A stretch of 64,000 nt of DNA from Microbispora corallina (lineage in GTDB: Bacteria > Actinomycetota > Actinomycetes > Streptosporangiales > Streptosporangiaceae), in NCBI RefSeq assembly GCF_016863035.1, contig NZ_BOOC01000007.1, forward strand, positions 124,001 to 188,000, in the 5' to 3' direction. A program made the translations under genes and the position numbers. Under the pieces are notes generated by a model that saw only the letters and a list, made by a program, of their open reading frames with translations, made no database searches and had not been told where the DNA came from. This document shows, piece by piece, positions 1 through 37,848 of the stretch (its first letter is position 1; each line of letters opens with the position of its first letter).

Positions 1-81
1 CAGGTAGAGAATAGAGGGTGCATGCCATGGGTGCCCCGGGCCTTCCCCGGCCCGGCTTCCCGACGACCCCGGAGTCCTTTC

Positions 82-1029: not shown

Positions 1030-1941
1030 TCAGCGGGCGGTGAGGGCGTGGACGACCCGCCGGGCCGGGCCGTCGGGCAGGGACCCGTGCAGCACCTCGA
1101 TCCGGTGGACCAGCCGGGGCCAGGCCAGCGGCACGGCGGCCCCGCAGGCCGCGGCCGAGCGGGGGAGCAGGGCGAGTCCGTGCCCGGCGGCCGCGAGGCG
1201 GGCCAGCGTCGCCACGTCGTGCCCCTCGTAGCGCAGCCCGGTCCGGAACCCGTCGATCCGCGCCACCGCGCGCAGCCGGTCGAGCGGCAGCACGCCCGGG
1301 GCGTCCACCCACAGCGCGTCGGCCAGCGCGTCCAGCCGCAGGCCGGGACGGCCGGCCAGCGGATGTCCCTCCGGGAGCACCACGACCAGCGGCTCCTCGC
1401 CGACTCCCGAGGAGGTGAGCGGGCCCACGTCCGGCAGTGCGAGGGGGTCGCTCGGCGCGGCGGGGCCGTCCACCAGGGCCAGGTCCGCCTCGCCCGACGC
1501 CGCCAGCGCCACCGCCGCGCCGGGATCGGCCGTCCGCACGGTGACCGTCCCCGCCGCGCCAGGGCTCCCCGCGGACGCCTCGGGGGCCGGGACGGCGGCC
1601 GCCCGCGCCAGGGCCGCGGCCGTGCCGGGGGTGACGGCCAGGGGTGAGGCGGCCACGGTGACGACGTGCGACTCGGCCACCACCCGGGCGACGTCGGCCC
1701 TGGCGGCCCGCAGGCGCAGCAGGAGCGGACCGGCGTGCTCGAGCAGCCGCTCGCCCGCCCGCGTCGGCCGCACCGGGCGGCGCAGCAGCAGGGGGACGCC
1801 GAGGTCGGCCTCCAGCGCCGCGATCTGCTGGGACACCGCCGGCTGCGTGTACCCGAGCCGGTCGGCGGCGGCGGAGAACGACCCCTCCCGGACCACGGTC
1901 ACGAACGTGCGCAGCAGATGCGGATCCACGCCCATCAGCAT
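1030..1941 (-). CDS. LysR-family transcriptional regulator
   Basis: 303 residues. The N-terminal winged helix-turn-helix is clear (LLRTFVTVVREGSFSAAADR followed by TQPAVSQQIAALEADLG), then a LysR substrate-binding domain to the C terminus (PLVVVLPEGHPLAGRPG, GLALLPRSAAACG). Length matches the family. ATG codons at 1941 and 1935 are both possible starts. It is divergent from the GATase-like gene at 1997 and convergent with the SBP-like gene at 82, so either could be its target; LysR proteins usually act on the divergent neighbour. The effector cannot be inferred. Confidence 0.92.
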   Translation of the reverse strand: MLMGVDPHLLRTFVTVVREGSFSAAADRLGYTQPAVSQQIAALEADLGVPLLLRRPVRPTRAGERLLEHAGPLLLRLRAARADVARVVAESHVVTVAASPLAVTPGTAAALARAAAVPAPEASAGSPGAAGTVTVRTADPGAAVALAASGEADLALVDGPAAPSDPLALPDVGPLTSSGVGEEPLVVVLPEGHPLAGRPGLRLDALADALWVDAPGVLPLDRLRAVARIDGFRTGLRYEGHDVATLARLAAAGHGLALLPRSAAACGAAVPLAWPRLVHRIEVLHGSLPDGPARRVVHALTAR

Positions 1942-1996
1942 CGCTTATCGACAGACCAGAAATCATCATTTGTGGTTACCTCGCCTCGTCGTCAGC
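1942..1996. promoter_or_regulatory. Divergent promoter region LysR / GATase-like gene
   Basis: This 55-bp spacer between two divergent starts is locally AT-rich compared with the window and holds an AAAT-N4-ATTT dyad around 1961-1972. That layout suits an autoregulating LysR protein, but the dyad is short and no -35/-10 pair is convincing. Confidence 0.4.
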
Positions 1997-2707
1997 ATGG
2001 ACGACATGGCACCGCGAATCGCCCTGGTCGGCGACAGATCGCCCAGCGTCCGCTCCCACACCCGGATCCCGCTGATCCTCGACGCCCTGCGCGAGCGGGA
2101 CGGCGTCACGCTCGACGCCTACTGGATCCCCACCGAGGAGGCGTCGGGGCTGAGCGGCTTCGACGGCGTGTGGATCCTGCCCGGCAGCCCGTACCGCAGT
2201 GAGCGGGGCGCCGTCGACGCGGCCCGCGCCGCCCGGGAGGGCGGGATCCCGCTCCTGGGCACGTGCGCGGGCTTCCAGCACGCGCTGCTGGAGTACGCCA
2301 GGAACGTGTGCGGCCTGGCCGCGGCGCACGCGGAGAACGACCCGGCCGCGCCCGACCCGCTGATCCAGCCGCTGAGCTGCTCGCTCGCAGGGCACGAGGC
2401 GGCCGTGCGGACGGTCCCCGGCTCGCTGTTCGAGCGACTCACGGGCGTGGACACGACCGTCGAGCGGTACTTCTGCTCCTTCGGCCCCAACCCGGCCTAC
2501 CTCGACGTCCTGGAGTCCCACGGCATGCGGTTCACGGGGCACGACGAGGCGGGCGAGGTGAGGGCGGCCGAGCTGCCCGGCCACCCCTTCTACCTGCTGA
2601 CGCTCTTCCAGCCGGAGCTGGCCGAGCGGCCGCCGCACCCGCTGGTCCGCGCCTTCGCGCGGGCCGCCCGCGCGCACGCGCAGAGCCGGGCGGATCGGGT
2701 CGCCTGA
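1997..2707 (+). CDS. CTP synthase C-terminal-like glutamine amidotransferase domain protein
   Basis: 236 residues from ATG 1997 (ATG 2006 is a possible internal start). The protein is a stand-alone class I glutamine-amidotransferase-like domain. The nucleophile loop GIPLLGTCAGFQHALLEYAR carries the Cys, and the C-terminal HPFYLLTLFQPEL holds a region like the GHPFFVATQFHPE segment of CTP synthases, but the usual catalytic His of that motif is Gln here (FQPEL instead of FHPE). The family is known as CTP synthase C-terminal region-related protein, of unknown role. The missing His suggests it may not hydrolyse glutamine. Divergent from the LysR gene; convergent, four bases apart, with the LLM oxidoreductase. 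Confidence 0.82.
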   Translation: MDDMAPRIALVGDRSPSVRSHTRIPLILDALRERDGVTLDAYWIPTEEASGLSGFDGVWILPGSPYRSERGAVDAARAAREGGIPLLGTCAGFQHALLEYARNVCGLAAAHAENDPAAPDPLIQPLSCSLAGHEAAVRTVPGSLFERLTGVDTTVERYFCSFGPNPAYLDVLESHGMRFTGHDEAGEVRAAELPGHPFYLLTLFQPELAERPPHPLVRAFARAARAHAQSRADRVA

Positions 2708-2711
2708 CGGC

Positions 2712-3725
2712 TCAGCCCAGCACGAGGTCGCGGATCACGGCGAGCGTCGGCTCGTCGCGCGGTCCCATGACCAGCAGGTTCGTCACGGGGCTCTTGCGCC
2801 ACAGGTCGAGCCGCTCGCGGATGCGGCCGATCGGGCCGAGGAGCGCGATGCCGTCGGCCAGTTCGTCCGGGATCGCGGCGAACGCCTCGTCACGGCGGCC
2901 GGCCAGGTAGAGGTCCTGGATCCGCTCCGCGGCCTCGGCGTACCCCATCCGGCCGACGATGTCGGCGTGGAAGTTCCGGGTGCGCGCGCCCATGCCGCCG
3001 ATGTACAGCGTGAGCATGGTCTTGACCGCGTCGAGCGCGGACCGCAGGTCGTCGGTGACCACGACCAGCACCATGGCCGCGATGTCGAAACCGGGACCGG
3101 CGCCCGCGAGGGCCTCGCCGTACATCGACCCGATCTTCTCGGGGTGCGCGAACAGCGGGAGCCAGCCCTGCGCGACCTCGGTGGCCAGCGCGACGTTCTT
3201 GGGTCCTTCGGCGCCCAGGTAGAGGGGGATCTCGGCGCGCAGGGGATGGGTGATGAGCTTGAGCGGCTTGCCGAGACCGCCGGGCAGCGGCAGCGGGTGG
3301 TGCGGGCCGGGGGAGGTGACCGGCTCCTCCCGCCGCCAGACCTTCCGCATGATCTCCACGTACTCCCGGGTCCGCGCGAGCGGCCGCCCGAACGGCTGGC
3401 CGTACCAGCCCTCGACGACCTGCGGCCCGGACGCGCCGATGCCGAGCAACAGCCGTCCGCCGGTGAGATGGTCGAGCGTCATCGCGGTCATCGCGGTGGT
3501 CACCGGCGGGCGGGCCGACATCTGGGCCACGCTGGTGCCGAGTTTGATCCTGCTGGTGCGGGCGCCGTACCAGGCGAGGGGGGTGAAGGCGTCGCTGCCG
3601 TACGCCTCGGCCGTCCAGACCGACTCGTAGCCCAGCCGCTCCGCGGTCCGGACGAGGTCGGTGGCGTCGACGGGGTCGCGCTGCCAGTACCCGAGGTTGA
3701 GCCCGAGTCTCAGATCGTCAGCCAC
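2712..3725 (-). CDS. LLM-class F420-dependent oxidoreductase, Rv3520c-like
   Basis: 337 residues, a luciferase-like TIM-barrel oxidoreductase. Visible hallmarks are the N-terminal LRLGLNLGYWQRDPVDATDL, GYESVWTAEAYGSDAFTPLA, GTSVAQMSARPPVTTAMTAM and LTGGRLLLGIGASGPQVVEG. This pattern fits actinobacterial F420-dependent members, in particular the Rv3520c-like group as I recall it. It presumably transfers hydride to or from coenzyme F420; the substrate is unknown. A 14-bp palindrome matching the mycobacterial KstR consensus sits 9-22 bases upstream of the ATG, which suggests control by a sterol-catabolism TetR repressor. Single-gene unit; the GntR gene upstream ends 19 bases before it on the same strand, so read-through is possible. 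Confidence 0.9.
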   Translation of the reverse strand: MADDLRLGLNLGYWQRDPVDATDLVRTAERLGYESVWTAEAYGSDAFTPLAWYGARTSRIKLGTSVAQMSARPPVTTAMTAMTLDHLTGGRLLLGIGASGPQVVEGWYGQPFGRPLARTREYVEIMRKVWRREEPVTSPGPHHPLPLPGGLGKPLKLITHPLRAEIPLYLGAEGPKNVALATEVAQGWLPLFAHPEKIGSMYGEALAGAGPGFDIAAMVLVVVTDDLRSALDAVKTMLTLYIGGMGARTRNFHADIVGRMGYAEAAERIQDLYLAGRRDEAFAAIPDELADGIALLGPIGRIRERLDLWRKSPVTNLLVMGPRDEPTLAVIRDLVLG

Positions 3726-4549: not shown

Positions 4550-5341
4550 GTGCGGGTCGCCCTGTTCGTCACCTGTGTCAACGACACGTTGTTCCCCGGG
4601 ACCGGCCGGGCGGTCGTGACCCTGCTGCGCCGCCTGGGCGTCGACGTGGACTTCCCGATGGCCCAGACCTGCTGCGGGCAGATGCACGTCAACACGGGGT
4701 ACCGCGACGAGGGCGCCCGGCTCGCCCGCCGGACGGTGGCCGCCTTCCGCGGGTACGACGCCGTGGTGATGCCGTCGGGCTCCTGCGCGGCGATGGTGCG
4801 CGAGCAGTACCCCCGGCTGACGGGAGGGCCGCAGGCGCCGCCGGGCCTGCGGGCGGCGGTGGACGAGTTGACGCCCAGGACGTACGAGCTGACCGAGTTC
4901 CTCGTCGACGTGCTCGGCGTGACCGACGTGGGGGCGTACTTCCCGCACCGGGTCACCTACCACCCGACGTGCCACTCCCTGCGCGGGCTGCACCTCGGCG
5001 ACCGTCCGCTGGCCCTGCTGCGGCAGGTGAGGGGGCTGGAACTGGTCCCCCTGCCGAACGCCGAGGAGTGCTGCGGCTTCGGCGGCACGTTCGCGGTGAA
5101 GAACGCCGGCGTCTCGGCGGCCATGTGCGCCGACAAGGTGCGCAACGTGCTCGACACCGGCGCCGAGGTCCTCTGCGCCGCCGACAACTCCTGTCTCATG
5201 CACATCGGCGGGACGCTCGGCCGCCAGCGGACCGGCGTACGGGTGATGCACCTGGCCGAGATCCTGGCCGCCACAGAGGCCGCCACAGGGGACGGCGCCG
5301 AGCGGGCGGCGTCCGCCCGGCGTCCCGGAGCCGCCCGATGA
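4550..5341 (+). CDS. lutA: Lactate utilization protein A, (Fe-S)-binding subunit
   Basis: 263 residues from GTG 4550, preceded by GGAGGG three bases upstream. It is a two-CCG-domain protein (CCG = cysteine-rich domain of glycolate oxidase and heterodisulfide reductase): MAQTCCGQMHVNTGY, VMPSGSCAAMV, HPTCHSLRG and ECCGFGGTFAVKN bind an Fe-S cluster. LutA is a subunit of the LutABC complex, which oxidises L-lactate to pyruvate in the cytoplasm or at the membrane and allows growth on lactate. The stop overlaps the lutB start (ATGA), so the two are translationally coupled. Slightly longer at the C terminus than usual. Confidence 0.93.
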   Translation: MRVALFVTCVNDTLFPGTGRAVVTLLRRLGVDVDFPMAQTCCGQMHVNTGYRDEGARLARRTVAAFRGYDAVVMPSGSCAAMVREQYPRLTGGPQAPPGLRAAVDELTPRTYELTEFLVDVLGVTDVGAYFPHRVTYHPTCHSLRGLHLGDRPLALLRQVRGLELVPLPNAEECCGFGGTFAVKNAGVSAAMCADKVRNVLDTGAEVLCAADNSCLMHIGGTLGRQRTGVRVMHLAEILAATEAATGDGAERAASARRPGAAR

Positions 5342-29926: not shown

Positions 29927-31510
29927 ATGTCCGGCAGGCAACACAGGGAGACGGAGATCGCCCGGCGAGTCAGGGCGCGTGGACTCGCGGCCGGGCGGAG
30001 CCTGGCTCAGATCGCCGAAGAAATCCATGAAGTCTGCGAGACACAGTTCGGGACCACTAGGATCAAGGCCCATCGCCTCTCGAACGGCATCGCCCTCGCC
30101 GATGTCATCGAGCAGGTCCGTGCCCTCTTCGAGAGGGACGGAAAGCCCGTCCCCGGCATCGGGGAGACGCTACTGTCCGCTTACGAGTCGGGCATGAAGC
30201 GCCCCGGTCCGGAGTATCTCCACTACCTGTGTTCGGTCTACCGGGTCGAACCCTTGGCCCTTGGATTCGACGGTCCGTGCATCTGCGGCCGCGGACACGT
30301 GGTCACGGGCGTCCTGGGCGGCGGAGACCCACAAGACGACAGACCTGACACTTCCCCCGAACCGCGTGAAGCGCCGGTCCCACTGGGCAGCGGCTACCCC
30401 TCCGCGAACGGGGGAGAGGAGGACGAGAACGTGCTACGGAGGACGCTGCTGACGCTCCTCGCCGGCACCGCGGGGGCCGCGAGCCTGGACAGCCAGGTGC
30501 TCGGCGCGGTCGAGAACCTGCGGCGGCGGATGGACGACACCATGGTGACGGCCACCGTCTCACCGGCGATGCTCGACCAGTGGGAGCAGTCCACGAACGG
30601 CTTCGGCCGCCAGTACATGAACACCCCCCCTCTACGGCTCCTGTGCGACGTGATGCTGGAGTTCTCGGCCGTGCGCAAGGCCCTCGAACGCCGCCAGCCG
30701 ATCGACGTCCAGGAACGCCTGTGCCGGATGGCCGCCCAGTTGGCCGGCCTGTCCGGGATGATCATGATAGACCTCGGCGACCAGCGTCTGGCCCGGTCGT
30801 TCTTCCGCACCGGCCGCACCGCCGCCGACGAGACCGGCGATCGCGCGCTGCGCGCCTGGGTGACGGCACGTGAGGCCCTCGTCCCGCTCTACTACGGCGA
30901 CCCACGCGAGGCGCTCACGCTTGCCAAGAAGAGCCGCGACCTCGCCGGCCACACCCCGTGCGCCGCGCGGACCATGGCCCCCGTGGTCGAGGCCCGGGCT
31001 CTCGCCATGCTGGCGGGCAACAACGGCGCCCGACACGAGGTCGTGGAGCAGGCCAAACGGGCCCTCCATCGGGCCAGGGCCGCCTTCCAGCAGATGAGCG
31101 CGAACGACCAGGAGGACGCGGCCTTCGGCTACACCGAGCGGCAGTTGTACTTCTACCAAGGTGACGTCCTGGTGAAGCTCGGGCAGACACTTGAGGCCGA
31201 CGTGATATTGGAGCAGGCCCTCGGGAAGTACTCCAACGAGGACCTGCTCGACCAGACGCTCATCCGGTTCGACCGTGCCCGGTGCCGGCTCATCGAGGGC
31301 GACGTCGAGGCAGCCCTCCAGATGGGACAGGAGGCCCTGGACATGGTCGACAAGGAGTACCGGACCGAGCTGATCCTCAAGCCCGCGTACGAGCTCGCCA
31401 AGGACATCCACGCCAAGTACGGCGACACCCCTCGGCTGGAGGCCTTCCGTGAGGCGCTGCAGCCGGGCCCGCTGGCGGTGCCGCCGAAGCTGGGCGAGGA
31501 CATCGCGTGA
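29927..31510 (+). CDS. XRE-family regulator with C-terminal TPR-like domain
   Basis: 527 residues from ATG 29927 (GAGAGAGGGG upstream). Residues 1-125 form an extended Cro/CI-type helix-turn-helix (RSLAQIAEEIHEV, LSAYESGMKRPGPEYLHYLC) with a Cys/His segment (GPCICGRGHV). A linker leads to a large helical domain from ~170 with TPR-like pairs (RLARSFFRTGRTAADETGDR, GDVEAALQMGQEALDM). Such proteins are abundant in filamentous actinomycetes as developmental or antibiotic regulators that read a peptide or protein signal. A GNAT gene, a small peptide gene and a TPR protein gene follow on the same strand, so it is a likely regulator of that block. Confidence 0.85.
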   Translation: MSGRQHRETEIARRVRARGLAAGRSLAQIAEEIHEVCETQFGTTRIKAHRLSNGIALADVIEQVRALFERDGKPVPGIGETLLSAYESGMKRPGPEYLHYLCSVYRVEPLALGFDGPCICGRGHVVTGVLGGGDPQDDRPDTSPEPREAPVPLGSGYPSANGGEEDENVLRRTLLTLLAGTAGAASLDSQVLGAVENLRRRMDDTMVTATVSPAMLDQWEQSTNGFGRQYMNTPPLRLLCDVMLEFSAVRKALERRQPIDVQERLCRMAAQLAGLSGMIMIDLGDQRLARSFFRTGRTAADETGDRALRAWVTAREALVPLYYGDPREALTLAKKSRDLAGHTPCAARTMAPVVEARALAMLAGNNGARHEVVEQAKRALHRARAAFQQMSANDQEDAAFGYTERQLYFYQGDVLVKLGQTLEADVILEQALGKYSNEDLLDQTLIRFDRARCRLIEGDVEAALQMGQEALDMVDKEYRTELILKPAYELAKDIHAKYGDTPRLEAFREALQPGPLAVPPKLGEDIA

Positions 31511-31544
31511 GCCAGGGCGAGGAGAGCGGGTGCGAGGAGGATCC

Positions 31545-32162
31545 ATGGCGGGAGGCCCGGCGCCGGCGGCCACAGGCCCGGCGCCGGGCGGTCGCGTGCC
31601 GGCACAGGGAGACCCTGGCGGCGTCGTCCGCGCGGCCACAGGGAAAAGCGAGCCGGGCGTGACCCCGACGCTGCGGATCCGTCGATACCGGTGGTCCGAC
31701 CTCGACGCCGTGTGGTCCCTGCACCAGGTCGGCCTGGCGCAGGTCGGCATCTCCCCCGGTGACGGCGTCTACTACGACGACGACTTCCCGCGCATCACCG
31801 AGATCTACCTGGCCGCCCGCGGCGAGTTCCTCGTCGGCGAGCTGCCCGAGGCCGGAATCGTGGCCATGGGCGGACTGCGCAGGATCGACGACCGGACTGC
31901 CGAAATGTGCCGTCTGCGCGTCCACCCCGACCATCAGAGACGCGGCTACGGCGCGCAGATCATGCAGGTGCTGGAGGAACGGGCCCGGGAGCTCGGCTAC
32001 TCCCTGCTCTGCGGGGACACCACCCTGCGGCAGGTGGCGGCCCTGGAGCTGTACCGGAAATCGGGCTGGCGGGAGTTACGGCGCGAAGCTCGCGGGGACA
32101 TGGTCGTCCTTTATCTGGAGAAACCCCTAAATGGTGTAGTTTCACCGCTTTTCTCCCGATAG
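31545..32162 (+). CDS. GNAT N-acetyltransferase
   Basis: 205 residues from ATG 31545, with a strong AGGAGG four bases upstream. The first ~40 residues are Pro/Gly/Ala-rich and disordered; the acetyltransferase domain follows (LRIRRYRWSDLDAVWSLHQV, VHPDHQRRGYGAQIMQVLEE with the acetyl-CoA loop, ALELYRKSGWRELRREARGD). The substrate is unknown. It lies 34 bases after the XRE/TPR gene and 85 bases before the peptide gene, so it probably belongs to the same unit; a role in modifying the peptide's Lys residues or N terminus is possible but unproven. Confidence 0.85.
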   Translation: MAGGPAPAATGPAPGGRVPAQGDPGGVVRAATGKSEPGVTPTLRIRRYRWSDLDAVWSLHQVGLAQVGISPGDGVYYDDDFPRITEIYLAARGEFLVGELPEAGIVAMGGLRRIDDRTAEMCRLRVHPDHQRRGYGAQIMQVLEERARELGYSLLCGDTTLRQVAALELYRKSGWRELRREARGDMVVLYLEKPLNGVVSPLFSR

Positions 32163-32247
32163 ATAGTGCTTCCAGGCCTTGGCGGATAGCTGATCTGAAT
32201 CAATACTTGTGCCTTGTCCTGTTCGCCCGAGTGGGGGAAGAGCCGCA
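32163..32247 (+). promoter_or_regulatory. Upstream region of the peptide gene
   Basis: An 85-bp, A/T-richer gap. TTGGCG at 32179-32184 and AATACT at 32202-32207 stand 17 bases apart, a weak sigma-70-like pair. GGGGGAAG at 32232-32239 is a good ribosome-binding site for the ATG at 32248. Confidence 0.35.
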
Positions 32248-32322
32248 ATGAAGAAGATCATTATCCGCAAGCCCGGCACCGCGAAGCTCACCGGCGCCTC
32301 CAGCGTCATCCACAAGGGGTGA
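32248..32322 (+). CDS. 24-residue cationic peptide, RiPP-precursor-like, coupled to the TPR gene
   Basis: A 24-codon ORF with GGGGGAAG eight bases upstream. The peptide begins MKKIIIRKPG, contains LTGASS and ends in His-Lys-Gly; it has five Lys and one Arg, two Thr, two Ser, no Cys and no acidic residue. Third positions are G/C in 23 of 24 codons while first positions are not GC-rich (10 of 24), a strong sign of real coding. Its TGA overlaps the GTG of the 665-residue TPR protein by four bases, so both are made together. A basic leader-like N terminus and short Thr/Ser tail suit a ribosomally made, modified peptide or a small signal; a mere leader ORF is the alternative. I do not recognise the family with certainty. 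Confidence 0.7.
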   Translation: MKKIIIRKPGTAKLTGASSVIHKG

Positions 32323-34316
32323 GGGACCGGCCTCGTCACATCTGGGTCAGGGGGAGACTCTCCCGTGACCGCGTGGCGGCGCTCCGGACATTGGAGCTGC
32401 CTCCCCTCCTGACGTCCGTGGTGAACGGGCATCGGCGGCTGCGTGGTCCCTACACGGTGGGTGGAGCGATCCTGCGCGCGCTGGTTCCGGATGCGTTGGA
32501 GCGTTCCCCTGAGCTGGTGGCCACGCACGACATCGAGATCCGGTCCGCCGCGGCGGACCTGCGCCCGCTGGTCCCGGCCCGCCGCGAGACGATCGAGGCG
32601 GGTCTGCCGGAGGACGAGCGCATCCTGGTGCCCGCCCCGCGCCGCACGCTCCGTGTCGCCAACGGGATCGCCGAGTTCGTCCGCGACTGCCTCCCCGGGC
32701 CGCGCGCTCTGGTGGTGGACAACCTGCATGAGGCCGACGCCACCGACCGCGAGCTGCTGCGCGTGCTGAGCCGCCGGGTGAGCGATCTGACGCTGGTCGT
32801 CGGGTCGCCCGAGCCGCCCTGGGGGGCCGCGCGGCCGGTCGACGCGCCCGCCCGCGAGATGCCGGACGAGGACGCCGGTGATTACGTGGCCTTGGACGGC
32901 ACCGGCGACGACCCGGCGGCGTACGAGGCGTACCGGGCGCTGTCCGCCGGCGAGCGGGCGCGCCTGCACGACGCGCGGGCCGCGGAGCTGGGCCCGGAGT
33001 ACGACCTGGGCGCGCTGCCGTACCACCGCGAGCACGGCAGCGACCGGGCGGCCGCGCTGCGGTCGCTGTGGGCCGCCGTCGACCACTGCGTCGCCGAGGG
33101 CTTCCTGGAGGCCGTGGCCGACCTGGGCCTGCGCGGGCTGCGGCTCGCCGAGCCCGGCTCCGACCTGTGGTGGCGCTTCACCCAGCGCACGGCCACGGCG
33201 CTGGCGGGCCTCGGCCGCCGGGACCGGGCGCTGGAGCTGTACGAGCGGGCGCGGAGGGTGAGCGTGGACCCCGCGGTCCACGCCGCCTCGGCCTACGGCA
33301 CGGCGATGCTCGACGCGCGCAACCCGGTGCCGGCCGAGCGGGACCTCCCGAGGGCGCGCGGCTGGATCAACGAGGCCATCGCGATCTCGACCCTGCTGCC
33401 GGACCGGCGGCAGCGGGCGTTCAAGCTCGGGTTCGACCAGAACGGGCGGGCGCTGATCGAACTGCGCGAGGGCAGGGTCGCCCGGGCCCTCGACCTCGTG
33501 CAGTCGGCCATCGACCTGGCCGAGCGCGACCTGCCGCCGCAGGCGCACCCGGTGCACCGGATGGTGCTGTTCGCCAACCGGGCCCAGCTCCTCGCCAGGA
33601 CCGGCCGGCCCGCGGACGCCCTGCGCGACCTCGACCGGGCCATCGCGATCGACCCGGCCTTCCCGGACCACTACCTCGACCGGGGGAACCTGCTGTTCGA
33701 GCTGGGCCGGGCGGACGAGGCGCTGGCCGACTACGAGACCGCGATCCAGGTGAGCCCGCCACTGCCGGAGGCGTACTACAACCGGGCGGAGCTGCGCCTG
33801 GCCGAAGGCGACCTCGCCCAGGCCAGGGAGGACCTCGACCACGTGATCGAGCTGGACCCCGAGTACGTCAACGCGTACGTGAACCGGGCCGGGGTCCTGG
33901 AGATGCTCGGCGAGCACGACGCGGCCAGGGGGGACGTCGAGACAGGGCTCGGCCTCGACCCGGGCAACGCCCACCTGCTGGGCGTGCTCGGACAGCTGGA
34001 GACGGCCGCGGGGCGGTTCGCGGAGGCGCGGGCGGCGTTCGATGCGGCCCTGTCGGCCGACCCCGCGCTCGGCTCGGCCTGGGCGAACCGGGCCATTCTG
34101 CGGTTCGAGACCGACGACGCCGCCGGGGCGGTCGACGACCTGACCCGGGCCCTCGACCTCGGCGAGGACGCCGCGCTCTACTACAACCGGGCGACGGCCC
34201 TGGCGGTGCTGGGCCGGGACCTCGACGCGGAGCAGGACCTGCGCCGGGCCCACGAGCTCGCGCCCGACGACGCCGAGATCAGCCAGGCGCTCGAACGCCA
34301 CGACAAGGCTGGCTGA
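32319..34316 (+). CDS. TPR protein with degenerate STAND-like N-terminal domain
   Basis: 665 residues from GTG 32319, which overlaps the stop of the peptide gene. The N-terminal ~190 residues (LPPLLTSVVNGHRRLRGPYT, then LRVANGIAEFVRDCL and LVVDNLHEADATDRELLRVL) look like the Walker B part of a STAND/MalT-type ATPase, but no Walker A GxxxxGK[ST] exists in the protein. From ~330 to the end there are about seven TPR units (ALRDLDRAIAIDPAFPDHYL, ALADYETAIQVSPPLPEAYY, AFDAALSADPALGSAWANRA). It is therefore a protein- or peptide-binding scaffold. Tight coupling to the peptide gene suggests that the peptide is its ligand or substrate. Start choice is supported by the overlap. Confidence 0.8.
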   Translation: MRDRPRHIWVRGRLSRDRVAALRTLELPPLLTSVVNGHRRLRGPYTVGGAILRALVPDALERSPELVATHDIEIRSAAADLRPLVPARRETIEAGLPEDERILVPAPRRTLRVANGIAEFVRDCLPGPRALVVDNLHEADATDRELLRVLSRRVSDLTLVVGSPEPPWGAARPVDAPAREMPDEDAGDYVALDGTGDDPAAYEAYRALSAGERARLHDARAAELGPEYDLGALPYHREHGSDRAAALRSLWAAVDHCVAEGFLEAVADLGLRGLRLAEPGSDLWWRFTQRTATALAGLGRRDRALELYERARRVSVDPAVHAASAYGTAMLDARNPVPAERDLPRARGWINEAIAISTLLPDRRQRAFKLGFDQNGRALIELREGRVARALDLVQSAIDLAERDLPPQAHPVHRMVLFANRAQLLARTGRPADALRDLDRAIAIDPAFPDHYLDRGNLLFELGRADEALADYETAIQVSPPLPEAYYNRAELRLAEGDLAQAREDLDHVIELDPEYVNAYVNRAGVLEMLGEHDAARGDVETGLGLDPGNAHLLGVLGQLETAAGRFAEARAAFDAALSADPALGSAWANRAILRFETDDAAGAVDDLTRALDLGEDAALYYNRATALAVLGRDLDAEQDLRRAHELAPDDAEISQALERHDKAG

Positions 34317-34943: not shown

Positions 34944-35792
34944 ATGAGCGCTGAGTATGTGCTGACCCTGTCCTGCCCCGACCGCCCCGGGGTGGTCGCC
35001 GCCGTCAGCGGGCTGCTGGCCCGGCACGGGTGCAACATCATCGAGAGCCAGCAGTTCGGCGACCCGGTCGCGGTGCGGTTCTTCATGCGCGTCCAGTTCG
35101 CGGCGGAACTGTCGCTGGACGAGTTGAGGGCGGCCTTCGCCGGGCTCGCCCCCGAGTTCGGCATGGAGTTCCAGCTCTTCGACCTCGCCGTACGGACGCG
35201 GGCGCTGGTGCTCGTCAGCAAATTCGACCACTGCCTGAACGACCTGCTCTACCGGGTGCGGTCCGGCCTGCTGCCCATCGAGATCACGGGCGTGGCGTCC
35301 AACCACCCGGACCTGCGGCCCCTCACCCAGTCGTACGGCGTGGAGTACCACCACCTGCCGGTCACGCCGGAGACCAAGCCGCGGCAGGAGGCGGAGATCC
35401 TCGCTCTGGTCGACCACTACCAGGCCGACCTGGTGGTGCTCGCGCGGTACATGCAGGTGCTCTCGGAGGACCTGTGCGCCAAGCTGGCGGGCCGGATGAT
35501 CAACATCCACCACTCGTTCCTGCCGTCCTTCAAGGGGGCCAAGCCGTACCACCAGGCGCACGCGCGCGGGGTGAAGCTCATCGGCGCGACCGCCCACTAC
35601 GTCACGGCCGACCTGGACGAGGGGCCGATCATCGAGCAGGAGGTCGCCCGGGTGAACCACACCCACTCGGCCGAGGACCTCGCCGCCATGGGCCGCGACG
35701 TGGAGTGCCAGGCGCTGGCCCGGGCCGTCCGCTGGCACGCCGAGCACCGGGTGCTGCTGGACGGCCACAAGACCGTCATCTTCCCCCGGTGA
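34944..35792 (+). CDS. purU: Formyltetrahydrofolate deformylase
   Basis: 282 residues. An N-terminal ACT domain (YVLTLSCPDRPGVVAAVSGL) is followed by a formyltransferase-fold hydrolase domain with VLVSKFDHCLNDLLYRVRSG, MINIHHSFLPSFKGAKPYHQ, HARGVKLIGATAHYVTADLD and DEGPIIEQEVARVNH, the signatures of PurU. It hydrolyses 10-formyl-THF to formate and THF, balancing one-carbon pools for purine synthesis; the ACT domain senses Met/Gly in E. coli. The last 17 bases overlap the 3' end of the convergent peptidase gene. Confidence 0.96.
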   Translation: MSAEYVLTLSCPDRPGVVAAVSGLLARHGCNIIESQQFGDPVAVRFFMRVQFAAELSLDELRAAFAGLAPEFGMEFQLFDLAVRTRALVLVSKFDHCLNDLLYRVRSGLLPIEITGVASNHPDLRPLTQSYGVEYHHLPVTPETKPRQEAEILALVDHYQADLVVLARYMQVLSEDLCAKLAGRMINIHHSFLPSFKGAKPYHQAHARGVKLIGATAHYVTADLDEGPIIEQEVARVNHTHSAEDLAAMGRDVECQALARAVRWHAEHRVLLDGHKTVIFPR

Positions 35793-37848
35793 CCCCGAGG
35801 CCCGTGTGCCGGGCCAGGAACGCCAGCTGGTCGGCCGCGAGCTCGATCGACTTGCTGACGGCCCGGGCGCCGTGGCCCACCTCGGTCTCGTTGCGGAGCA
35901 GGATCGGCCGGTCGCCCGCCTGCGCGTGCTGGAGGGCCGCCGCCATCTTCCACGCGTGCAGCGGGTGCACCCGGGTGTCGGAGGCGAAGACCGCGAACAG
36001 CGTGGCGGGATAGGAGACCCCCTCGCGGACGCGGTGGTACGGCGAGTAGCCCCACAGCCAGCCGAACTCCTCGGGCACGTCGGCCGATCCGTACTCCACG
36101 TTCCAGGTCGCGCCCAGGCCGAACTTCTCGTAGCGGATCATGTCGAGCAGGGGGGCCGTGCAGACGACGGCCGCGTACAGGTCGGGCCGCTGGGTGAGCG
36201 CCGACCCGACGAGGAGGCCGCCGTTGGAGCCGCCGGAGATGGCGAGCCGGTCCGGGCTGGTCACGCCGGTGGCGATGAGGTGCTCGGCTGCCGCGTGCAG
36301 GTCGTCGAAGACGTTCTGCTTGTGGCCGAGCATGCCGGCGCGGTGCCACTGCTCGCCCTGCTCGCCGCCGCCCCGCAGTTGCGCGACCGCGTAGACGCCG
36401 CCCGCCTCGACCCAGGCGAGCGCGGTCGCCGAGAAGCCGGGGGTCATCGAGATGCCGAAGCCGCCGTACCCGTAGAGGATCGTGGGCCGGGGGCCGGAGC
36501 CGTCGCGTGAGATGGCCAGCATGTGGACCTCGGTGCCGTCCTTCGAGCGGTAGACGATCTGCTCGGTCCGGGCCTCGGGCACCTCGATCGCCCCGGGAGG
36601 CGCCTCCCACAGCGTGGTCTCGCCGGTCAGCGCGTCGTAGCGGTAGACCGCGGTGGGGGTGATGGTGTCGGTGTAGCTGAACCAGGCCTCGTGGCCGCCC
36701 TCGGGACGCTCGACGATGCCGCCGACCGAGCCGAGGCCGGGCAGCGGAACCTCGCCGGTCCGCTCGCCCGTCTCCAGCGCATGGACGGTGATCTCGGAGA
36801 TGGCGTGACGGGTCCAGCCGGCGAGGATGATCGGCTCGGGCAGGTCGTCGAGGATCGCGAAGTCCGACAGGACGGCCTCATGGTCCTCCGGGATCAGGTC
36901 CCGCCAGCTGTCCGCGCCGGGCTCCGACGGCGACGTCACGCAGACGCGGCCGCGCGGCGCGTCGAGGTCGGTGAAGACGTAGAGCCGGCCGTCGCGGCCC
37001 ACGTGGAGCGCCGTCTGCGCGTCGACGCCCTCCTGCACCGTGACCAGGGCCGGCGCCTCGGGTGCGGACGCCGACAGGTCGCCCAGCCACAGGTCGTTGC
37101 GGGGGGCGGTGCCCCGGGCGGCGGAGATCCACACCCAGCGGCCGTCGCGGGAGACCGCCACCCCGTAGTAGTTGGTCTTCTCCAGCCCCTCGCCGAAGAT
37201 CAGCACGTCGTCGTCGGCCGGCGAGCCCACGCGGTGCAGGTAGACGCGGCGGTGGAACTGCTCCTCGCCGTCCGGGACCAGGGCAGGCGCCAGCCGGCGG
37301 ACGTAGTAGAACGCCTCGCCGCCCGGCAGCCAGGCGACGGGGGAGTAGCGGCACCGGTCGATCGGCCCCTCGACGACCTCGCCGCTCTCGACGTCGATGA
37401 CGTAGAGCTTCGACTCCTCGTCGCCGCCCACCGAGATCTGGTAGGCCAGCCGGTCGCCCTCCTTGCTCGGCTGGTAGGAGTCGAGCGTCGTCACCCCGGA
37501 CGGGTCGAGGGCCGTGGGGTCGAGCAGGACGCGCTCGCCGTCCTCGTCGGCGACGTACAGGACCGGGTGCTCCTGGTCCGGCGTACGGCGGGTGAAGAAG
37601 CGGCGCTCCCCCCGCCAGACCGGGGTGCCGACCGAGCCCGAGCGCAGCAGCTCGGCGACGCGGGCCCGGAAGTGCTCGCGGCCGTCGAGTTCGGCGCCGC
37701 GGAACAGCGCGTCCTGCGCGTCCAGCCACTCCTTGGTCTCCGGGGCGTCCGGATCCTCAAGCCACCGGTACGGGTCGGGGACGGGGGTCCCGTGCAGCAC
37801 GTCGACGATCTCGTCACGGCGGGCGGGCGGATACGGCAGTCGCGTCAT
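35776..37848 (-). CDS. Prolyl oligopeptidase family serine peptidase (S9A)
   Basis: 690 residues. The N-terminal start YPPARRDEIVDVLHGTPVPD and PYRWLEDPDAPETKEWLDAQ is the classic POP opening. A beta-propeller fills ~70-410. The alpha/beta-hydrolase domain holds ILYGYGGFGISMTPGFS, the nucleophile elbow ISGGSNGGLLVGSA, FASDTRVHPLHAWKM (Asp) and TEVGHGARAVSK (His). No signal peptide, so cytosolic cleavage after Pro in short peptides. Complete. Its 3' end overlaps purU by 17 bases. Confidence 0.95.
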   Translation of the reverse strand: MTRLPYPPARRDEIVDVLHGTPVPDPYRWLEDPDAPETKEWLDAQDALFRGAELDGREHFRARVAELLRSGSVGTPVWRGERRFFTRRTPDQEHPVLYVADEDGERVLLDPTALDPSGVTTLDSYQPSKEGDRLAYQISVGGDEESKLYVIDVESGEVVEGPIDRCRYSPVAWLPGGEAFYYVRRLAPALVPDGEEQFHRRVYLHRVGSPADDDVLIFGEGLEKTNYYGVAVSRDGRWVWISAARGTAPRNDLWLGDLSASAPEAPALVTVQEGVDAQTALHVGRDGRLYVFTDLDAPRGRVCVTSPSEPGADSWRDLIPEDHEAVLSDFAILDDLPEPIILAGWTRHAISEITVHALETGERTGEVPLPGLGSVGGIVERPEGGHEAWFSYTDTITPTAVYRYDALTGETTLWEAPPGAIEVPEARTEQIVYRSKDGTEVHMLAISRDGSGPRPTILYGYGGFGISMTPGFSATALAWVEAGGVYAVAQLRGGGEQGEQWHRAGMLGHKQNVFDDLHAAAEHLIATGVTSPDRLAISGGSNGGLLVGSALTQRPDLYAAVVCTAPLLDMIRYEKFGLGATWNVEYGSADVPEEFGWLWGYSPYHRVREGVSYPATLFAVFASDTRVHPLHAWKMAAALQHAQAGDRPILLRNETEVGHGARAVSKSIELAADQLAFLARHTGLGVTGGR

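Follow-up and report, generated by a model that had tools for sequence, protein, structure and literature searches.

A conserved 24-codon gene paired with a TPR gene in Microbispora corallina, and its relatives beside M50-like proteases

Introduction

A gene of 24 codons that runs into the start of a much larger gene raises two questions, namely whether it encodes a peptide at all and, if so, what this peptide does beside the protein of its neighbour. The case is met in Microbispora corallina, in a stretch of 64,000 nucleotides (contig NZ_BOOC01000007.1, positions 124,001 to 188,000) that is called the window throughout. The initial annotation had seen there a basic peptide encoded together with a peptide-binding-type TPR scaffold, behind a GNAT gene and an XRE/TPR regulator, and had taken the whole for a compact peptide-signal, toxin or modified-peptide system.

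The two genes in the window

The coordinates of both genes and their 4-nt overlap were re-read from the sequence and agree with the earlier description of a 24-codon gene overlapping the GTG of a 665-residue TPR gene (Table 1). The peptide gene is preceded by the ribosome-binding site GGGGGAAGAG and has G or C at 23 of its 24 third codon positions, while its product lacks Cys, Asp and Glu and ends in SVIHKG; what had been said of its composition, including the basic N terminus and the Thr/Ser tail, was correct. The GTGA overlap is fit for translational coupling, which probably takes place here.

Table 1. Features of the peptide-TPR pair in the window (positions of the window; residues where so marked)
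Feature	Position	Strand	Description
Weak terminator-like hairpin	32132..32147	+	overlaps end of GNAT frame
Conserved stretch 5' of peptide	32177..32217	+	mostly preserved in an alignment of 14 class A loci; promoter-like by eye only
24-aa peptide gene	32248..32322	+	ATG 32248, TGA 32320-32322; product MKKIIIRKPGTAKLTGASSVIHKG
Peptide halves	residues 1-15 and 16-24		1-15 leader-like; 16-24 near-constant C-terminal half in class A
GTGA overlap, peptide stop / TPR start	32319..32322	+	4 nt; same in 73/79 named loci
TPR gene	32319..34316	+	GTG start, 665 aa; putative N-terminal degenerate STAND/AAA_16-like domain, then TPR repeats

The peptide gene of the window is confirmed as real, conserved and protein-coding. 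Against the earlier alternative of equal variation at synonymous and non-synonymous sites, a pN/pS of 0.27 was found (pS 0.49, pN 0.13; non-independent pairs among 67 distinct class A coding sequences, the window's included). Class A comprises the peptides that end in ...IHKG or ...LHKG, with locus L183 counted among them. Codon choice within this class is varied, with four codons each for Gly16, Pro9 and Gly10 and five for Leu14, and Gly24 is written GGG in 65 of 66 distinct genes, in keeping with the overlapping GTG. An RNA element at the peptide gene was set aside, as Rfam gave no match at E 1 within 31500-32800. Upstream, AATACTTGTGCCTTGT lies at 32202-32217 within the conserved stretch between GNAT and the peptide, and a scan for the sigma-70 consensus 5' of the peptide found no promoter; the hairpin scan returned one hairpin, against a mean of 0.2 (sd 0.6) in shuffles.

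The TPR repeats of the larger protein occupy residues ~410-650 (Pfam). AAA_16 matches weakly and below the cut-off (E 2.6e-4), over profile positions 72-161 of 167 only, so that the P-loop part is absent; the query used for the Pfam, NCBIfam, PADLOC and 297-genome searches began at 32322, one residue short. The place expected for Walker A is occupied by HRRLRGPYTxGGxLLRAL, and invariant residues are kept across relatives in the Walker-B-like region LVVDNLHEAD. Walker A itself, GxxxxGK[ST], is missing from the first 260 residues of all 58 relatives and from all 21 N-domain segments, which upholds the earlier observation of a Walker-B-like segment without Walker A. The N-terminal part is probably a degenerate STAND-type domain, to judge from these motifs. 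Pfam matched TPR families and the weak AAA_16 only, with no helix-turn-helix among its matches, and PADLOC matched the protein only through the repeats (PrimPol, 1.7e-5) and its neighbours not at all.

Conservation and pairing across genomes

The best 80 of 236 related TPR places in named genomes were taken, which are the nearest relatives (75 class A, 5 class B). Each of these has one family peptide upstream of the TPR gene, caught by script in 79 and by eye in L183, and the same 4-nt overlap recurs in 73 of the 79 script-caught loci. Closest to the window, the 18 loci L009-L026, from this genus and from genera near it, carry a 24-codon peptide upstream of the TPR gene. Class B is arranged differently: in 9 of 11 loci 25-168 nt separate the peptide from the first usable TPR start downstream, and TTG stands in the overlap in the other 2. 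At L191 (Streptosporangium sp. KLBMP 9127), about 4851-4960, the peptide and the TPR N-terminus lie in one frame and are parted by a stop only, unlike the usual other-frame overlap, which is possibly due to an indel or an assembly error.

The sampled family genomes, 297 in number, carry the TPR N-domain in 140 cases. The peptide profile (E 1e-3) matches 137 genomes in all, namely 136 of the 140 that are TPR-positive vs 1 of the 157 that are TPR-negative (G247). The TPR-positive genomes that it misses are G150, which has a divergent 25-residue peptide (locus L089), G069 and G027, which have precursors of the class C described below, and G199, which is 67% complete. Such recurrence upstream supports the earlier claim of a peptide encoded together with a peptide-binding-type scaffold. 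The TPR tree (52 of 59 intended rows, 7 having been dropped by a motif filter; LG+G4, quick method, unrooted) requires two changes for classes A, B and C, the least possible, and places A and B together on one side of a branch marked 99*. On this tree the peptide class follows the TPR clade, and by sequence comparison the pair recurs at several chromosomal places, with one chromosomal context kept across genera by the class A pairs.

The pairing is strong, not absolute. That the peptide would always precede the TPR gene is true of each of the best 80 of 236 named loci, yet the word is too strong, because no family peptide lies near the TPR gene at L048 (genome G030, 46% to the window) or at the divergent relatives L044 and L314 (about 40%). 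The sole peptide of G030, MKKILIHRPGTVGLRGAASAKHSG, is on another contig than L048.

Peptides also occur without an adjacent partner. Twenty loci without a listed TPR match were inspected, and eight had none. Intact peptides without a TPR gene stand behind NsdA-GNAT at L129, L132, L133, L134, L139, L142 and L143, all of one genus, while at L130 a peptide gene in the same place has lost its stop; in G247, whose TPR N-domain match is partial (48 columns), L274 holds an intact class B-like peptide without an adjacent TPR gene. These make nine such peptide genes among the loci inspected, a figure that is no census. All 8 genomes with an orphan in the NsdA place have a TPR gene elsewhere, and in 5 of 5 that were re-searched a peptide belonging to this distant gene lies no more than 250 nt from it. 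Among six orphan peptides pN/pS is 0.26, and L129 and L134 have GGC at the overlap codon, which removes the overlapping start. The peptide thus persists away from its partner gene, which argues against a pure leader-ORF role, and the pairing is weakened but unbroken. TPR relics behind the orphans were considered and set aside: a match lies directly downstream in 1 of 8 loci (L139, E 6e-4), and it is weak because the same search gives matches in senseless places down to 0.009.

Surroundings of the pair

The gene order around the pair is MscS, NsdA-family, GNAT, peptide and TPR, with NUDIX and PurU beyond, and this outline is kept across genera. An S9 peptidase gene of the prolyl-oligopeptidase type lies 3' of the window pair at 35776-37848 and is also found in some relatives. 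The supposed XRE/TPR regulator is instead an NsdA-family protein (NCBIfam NF053720, 3e-43). Neither this regulator nor the GNAT, both of which had been counted as parts of the system, is needed: class B pairs, which join the TPR family to a 24-residue peptide, adjoin SMC-like and FtsY-like genes in 10 of 17 loci and an agmatine-deiminase-like gene in 3 of 17, and these loci have no NsdA and no GNAT. The NsdA-GNAT pair is ruled out as a necessary part, and the unit is the peptide with its TPR gene, since this pair recurs in other contexts without both. A local role of NsdA and GNAT in class A may still exist, because the TPR-less peptides persist exactly behind these genes.

The class B neighbours were rejected as partners and are read as places only (SMC called by eye, FtsY from SRP54, agmatine deiminase from PAD_porph). 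Among neighbours that were mostly clustered and partly annotated, class A and class B pairs had no cluster in common. The class B TPR gene has an MFS-type transporter gene beside it in L084, L137, L140 and L144, and an MFS-like gene, identified by eye, adjoins the orphan peptide L274 in G247.

Relatives beside M50-like proteases

Distant members of the TPR family, on the far side of the tree and here called class C, follow an M50-like membrane-type protein of ~400 residues. An M50-type gene is present in 13 of 13 class C loci; HExxH is found in 12 of 12 of the M50-like proteins, and Pfam Peptidase_M50 matches only 3 of 12, at best with 4.4e-4. Upstream of the M50-like gene stands a small gene in 12 of 12 loci (for example MKKIKIRKAGPVRLTAAACSIYKNVS and MKKIVVRKPGTVRLTAMACYCYGCCCCGGRAAI), and the thirteenth locus, L313, has the precursor MKKITVRRTGDVRLTSATCACPYPQAN. 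A peptide of 46-58 aa with a single membrane span, which had seemed to precede distant TPR genes, was discarded, since it proved to be an internal-start reading of the C-terminal end of the M50-type gene.

The class C peptides have the N-terminal half MKKIxIRKxGxVRLT in common and vary behind it, which is the RiPP pattern of a conserved leader and a variable core. Mean identity falls from 0.82 in the first half to 0.43 in the second, whereas in class A it rises from 0.70 to 0.87, a contrast that is inflated because the class C set spans more divergence; class A thus departs from the RiPP leader/core pattern, and class B has 0.70 vs 0.61. Among 769 small ORFs, a profile of the first 15 residues of the A/B peptides gives the top ranks to the 12 precursors from 12 class C loci, the best non-precursor having E 0.39, and hhalign joins the A/B and C peptides at 97.9% (E 3e-13). 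In the opposite direction, the class C leader profile places 5 of 5 class A and 2 of 4 class B peptides above the best of 2000 shuffles; the L089-type peptide does not exceed it. At the level of these profiles, the first half of the window peptide is shown to be homologous to the class C precursors, and the earlier idea of a modified-peptide system receives partial support from these relatives, which resemble RiPP precursors beside an M50-like protease.

At L302, on the plasmid NZ_CP109482.1 of Streptomyces sp. NBC_01450, a 4-nt overlap joins the M50-type gene and the TPR gene, and the TPR protein belongs to the same family as that of the window (37.7% over 93%); its precursor was not recovered by the A/B leader profile, though MRKISVRRTEPIKVTSAPFSHQPAIVPV is in place. 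Sixteen annotated features around L302 include no radical SAM, LanB-like or MNIO gene. Four families of the class sample have class C, as does this Streptomyces plasmid, while A and B were seen only in the family of the window; class C is taken as the older form owing to this wider spread, the tree being unrooted.

The N-terminus of the M50-like protein appears weakly RRE-like in sequence. Against PDB sequences TfuB1, which we take to be a lasso RRE, came second at E 0.13, behind a DARPin. PqqD gave no match among 12 class C members at E 1; below the cut-off it lies at the right place in class C genomes G390 (0.65) and G528 (0.68), and in other M50-type genes of G019 (0.0071), the window's genome (0.017) and L306 (0.037), with the model also matching 13 of 14 control genomes at that threshold.

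No M50-like protease gene adjoins the window pair, and the window genome has two further M50-type genes. Of the 16 in-family TPR-positive genomes in the class sample, 6 have no M50-type match at 1e-5 (G095, G131, G029, G081 and G070 are listed with none, and G105 is not among the 17 positives), so that maturation in trans by this type cannot be general, and the A/B peptide is probably not matured by an M50-type protease.

Several M50-type genes stand apart from the pair. In the window's genome, L306 (G000:C77:1-7470) holds a stand-alone gene at about 1814-3266 (Peptidase_M50 3e-4), with a candidate precursor ending ISIRKLDKIETTGFDSNSHGQ just upstream, and L305 (G000:C21:56000-73000) holds one at contig positions 63847-64944, for which the candidate precursor ends in RISIRLLDKIETTNTYSGNSNS. 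On a plasmid of Streptomyces sp. NBC_00376 (L303, 3779-9191) BTAD regulator, ThiF-family and M50-type genes lie in a row, and 21 Streptomyces plasmid records contain M50-type matches. At L304, L309, L310 and L311, where ThiF genes are guessed from the ORF order, small upstream ORFs contain an IRKLEKIETT-like stretch. Homology of these peptides to the window peptide is suggested by their look, but a profile of the class C leader cannot tell them from shuffles, and they were not accepted as homologues.

Proposed explanation and alternatives

We propose that the pair is a dedicated two-gene module, in which a precursor-like peptide has become the dedicated ligand of a degenerate STAND-type TPR protein, and we give this a probability of somewhat under one half (about 0.47). 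The window module would be a reduced class C cluster without its protease. Its peptide would no longer be matured into a variable product; left unprocessed, or at most trimmed, it would serve as an unvarying ligand or subunit. Through the overlap it would be made beside its TPR partner, which probably binds it, the peptide being held by the TPR groove together with the STAND-like domain that lacks Walker A, and the complex might act as an intracellular switch or adaptor. The fuller version is tentative and rather doubtful as a whole: a RiPP-type precursor family would have given rise to an intracellular ligand of 24 residues, constant and unmodified, that is translated together with a STAND/TPR protein whose ATP site has been lost and is tuned to it, and this peptide-controlled switch, with a peptide-processing cluster as its ancestor, would work without secretion, import, modification or DNA binding. 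The main complication for the ligand model is the persistence of peptides without an adjacent TPR gene.

These same orphans, kept behind NsdA-GNAT, suit the view that the peptide is a genuine RiPP precursor whose maturation enzymes are encoded elsewhere (or, in class A, are the nearby GNAT or S9 peptidase), with SSVIHKG as the core of one fixed product and the TPR protein as chaperone or immunity factor. The first half that the peptide has in common with precursors beside an M50-like protease, the two M50-type genes elsewhere in the window genome, and the GNAT and S9 genes near the pair agree with it as well. However, the second half of class A is more conserved than the first, the six in-family TPR-positive genomes without M50 type speak against it, and class A and class B pairs share no recurring enzyme cluster beside them, most neighbours having been clustered without annotation; this view is considered unlikely.

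It is improbable that the peptide acts as a regulatory leader or an arrest peptide, with its translation governing the TPR gene via the overlap. The frequency of the 4-nt overlap among the best 80 of 236 loci and the nearly invariant GGG for Gly24 are what such a role would predict, but the class B peptide is still conserved where the TPR start lies well behind it, orphan peptides remain intact where no TPR gene follows, including two in which the overlapping start is removed, and Rfam gave nothing around the gene. An RRNPP-like quorum-sensing propeptide with its receptor would account for the adjacency of the two genes and is very improbable, as the Pfam matches of the TPR protein include no helix-turn-helix and no secretion signal is seen by eye in the peptide. 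A peptide toxin with a TPR antitoxin, or the reverse, is the least credible, for beyond the overlap of two genes, one of them for a small basic peptide, the toxin reading finds no evidence pointing its way, while intact orphan peptides exist, PADLOC touches only the repeats of the TPR protein, and the chromosomal context of class A pairs stays the same from genus to genus.

Comparison with known systems and significance

Neither the peptide family nor the cluster of precursor, M50-like protease and TPR protein is described in the searched portions of the open-access literature (including PMC7470986, PMC8068269, PMC12710340 and PMC10885120), and PMC12250964 holds no match for the searched terms; the peptide-processing cluster is apparently undescribed. 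What emerges is an overlooked family of 24-codon genes with a tie to a cluster of RiPP-like kind. Should the pair be a reduced cluster of this kind, it would show a natural-product precursor becoming an internal signal, and it would furnish a peptide-protein pair that is small and open to testing. A target for mining is the wider M50-type family, which has precursor candidates of its own.

Among known systems, STAND NTPases (AAA_16 or NB-ARC plus TPR) resemble the TPR protein in domain order, in the Walker-B-like segment and through the weak AAA_16 match, and differ from it by Walker A, which is absent in 58 of 58 relatives. RRNPP pairs likewise have adjacent genes for a peptide and a TPR protein, but Pfam shows no DNA-binding domain in the window TPR protein, and the peptide has no secretion signal by eye. 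The FxSxx-COOH system consists of the FxsA peptide and the TPR protein FxsT, and is thus also an actinomycete combination of a small peptide with a TPR/STAND-type protein; the window peptide, however, ends in SVIHKG and not in FxSxx, and no FxSxx-COOH/FxsT model is among the NCBIfam matches of the TPR protein at E 0.1.

Membrane M50 proteases are known in RiPP pathways, and PMC10885120 names those of the pearlins (TglG, TmoG) and the epipeptides (EpeP). Like these, the class C relatives combine a small precursor with an M50-like protease; the points of difference are that the annotated features around L302 include no enzyme of the radical SAM, LanB-like or MNIO kinds and that no M50 gene lies beside the window pair. 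Class C clusters themselves differ from the window pair in their adjoining protease and in a second half that is variable where that of the window is constant, and they share with it the same TPR family and, in 13 of 13 loci, a homologous first half of the peptide.
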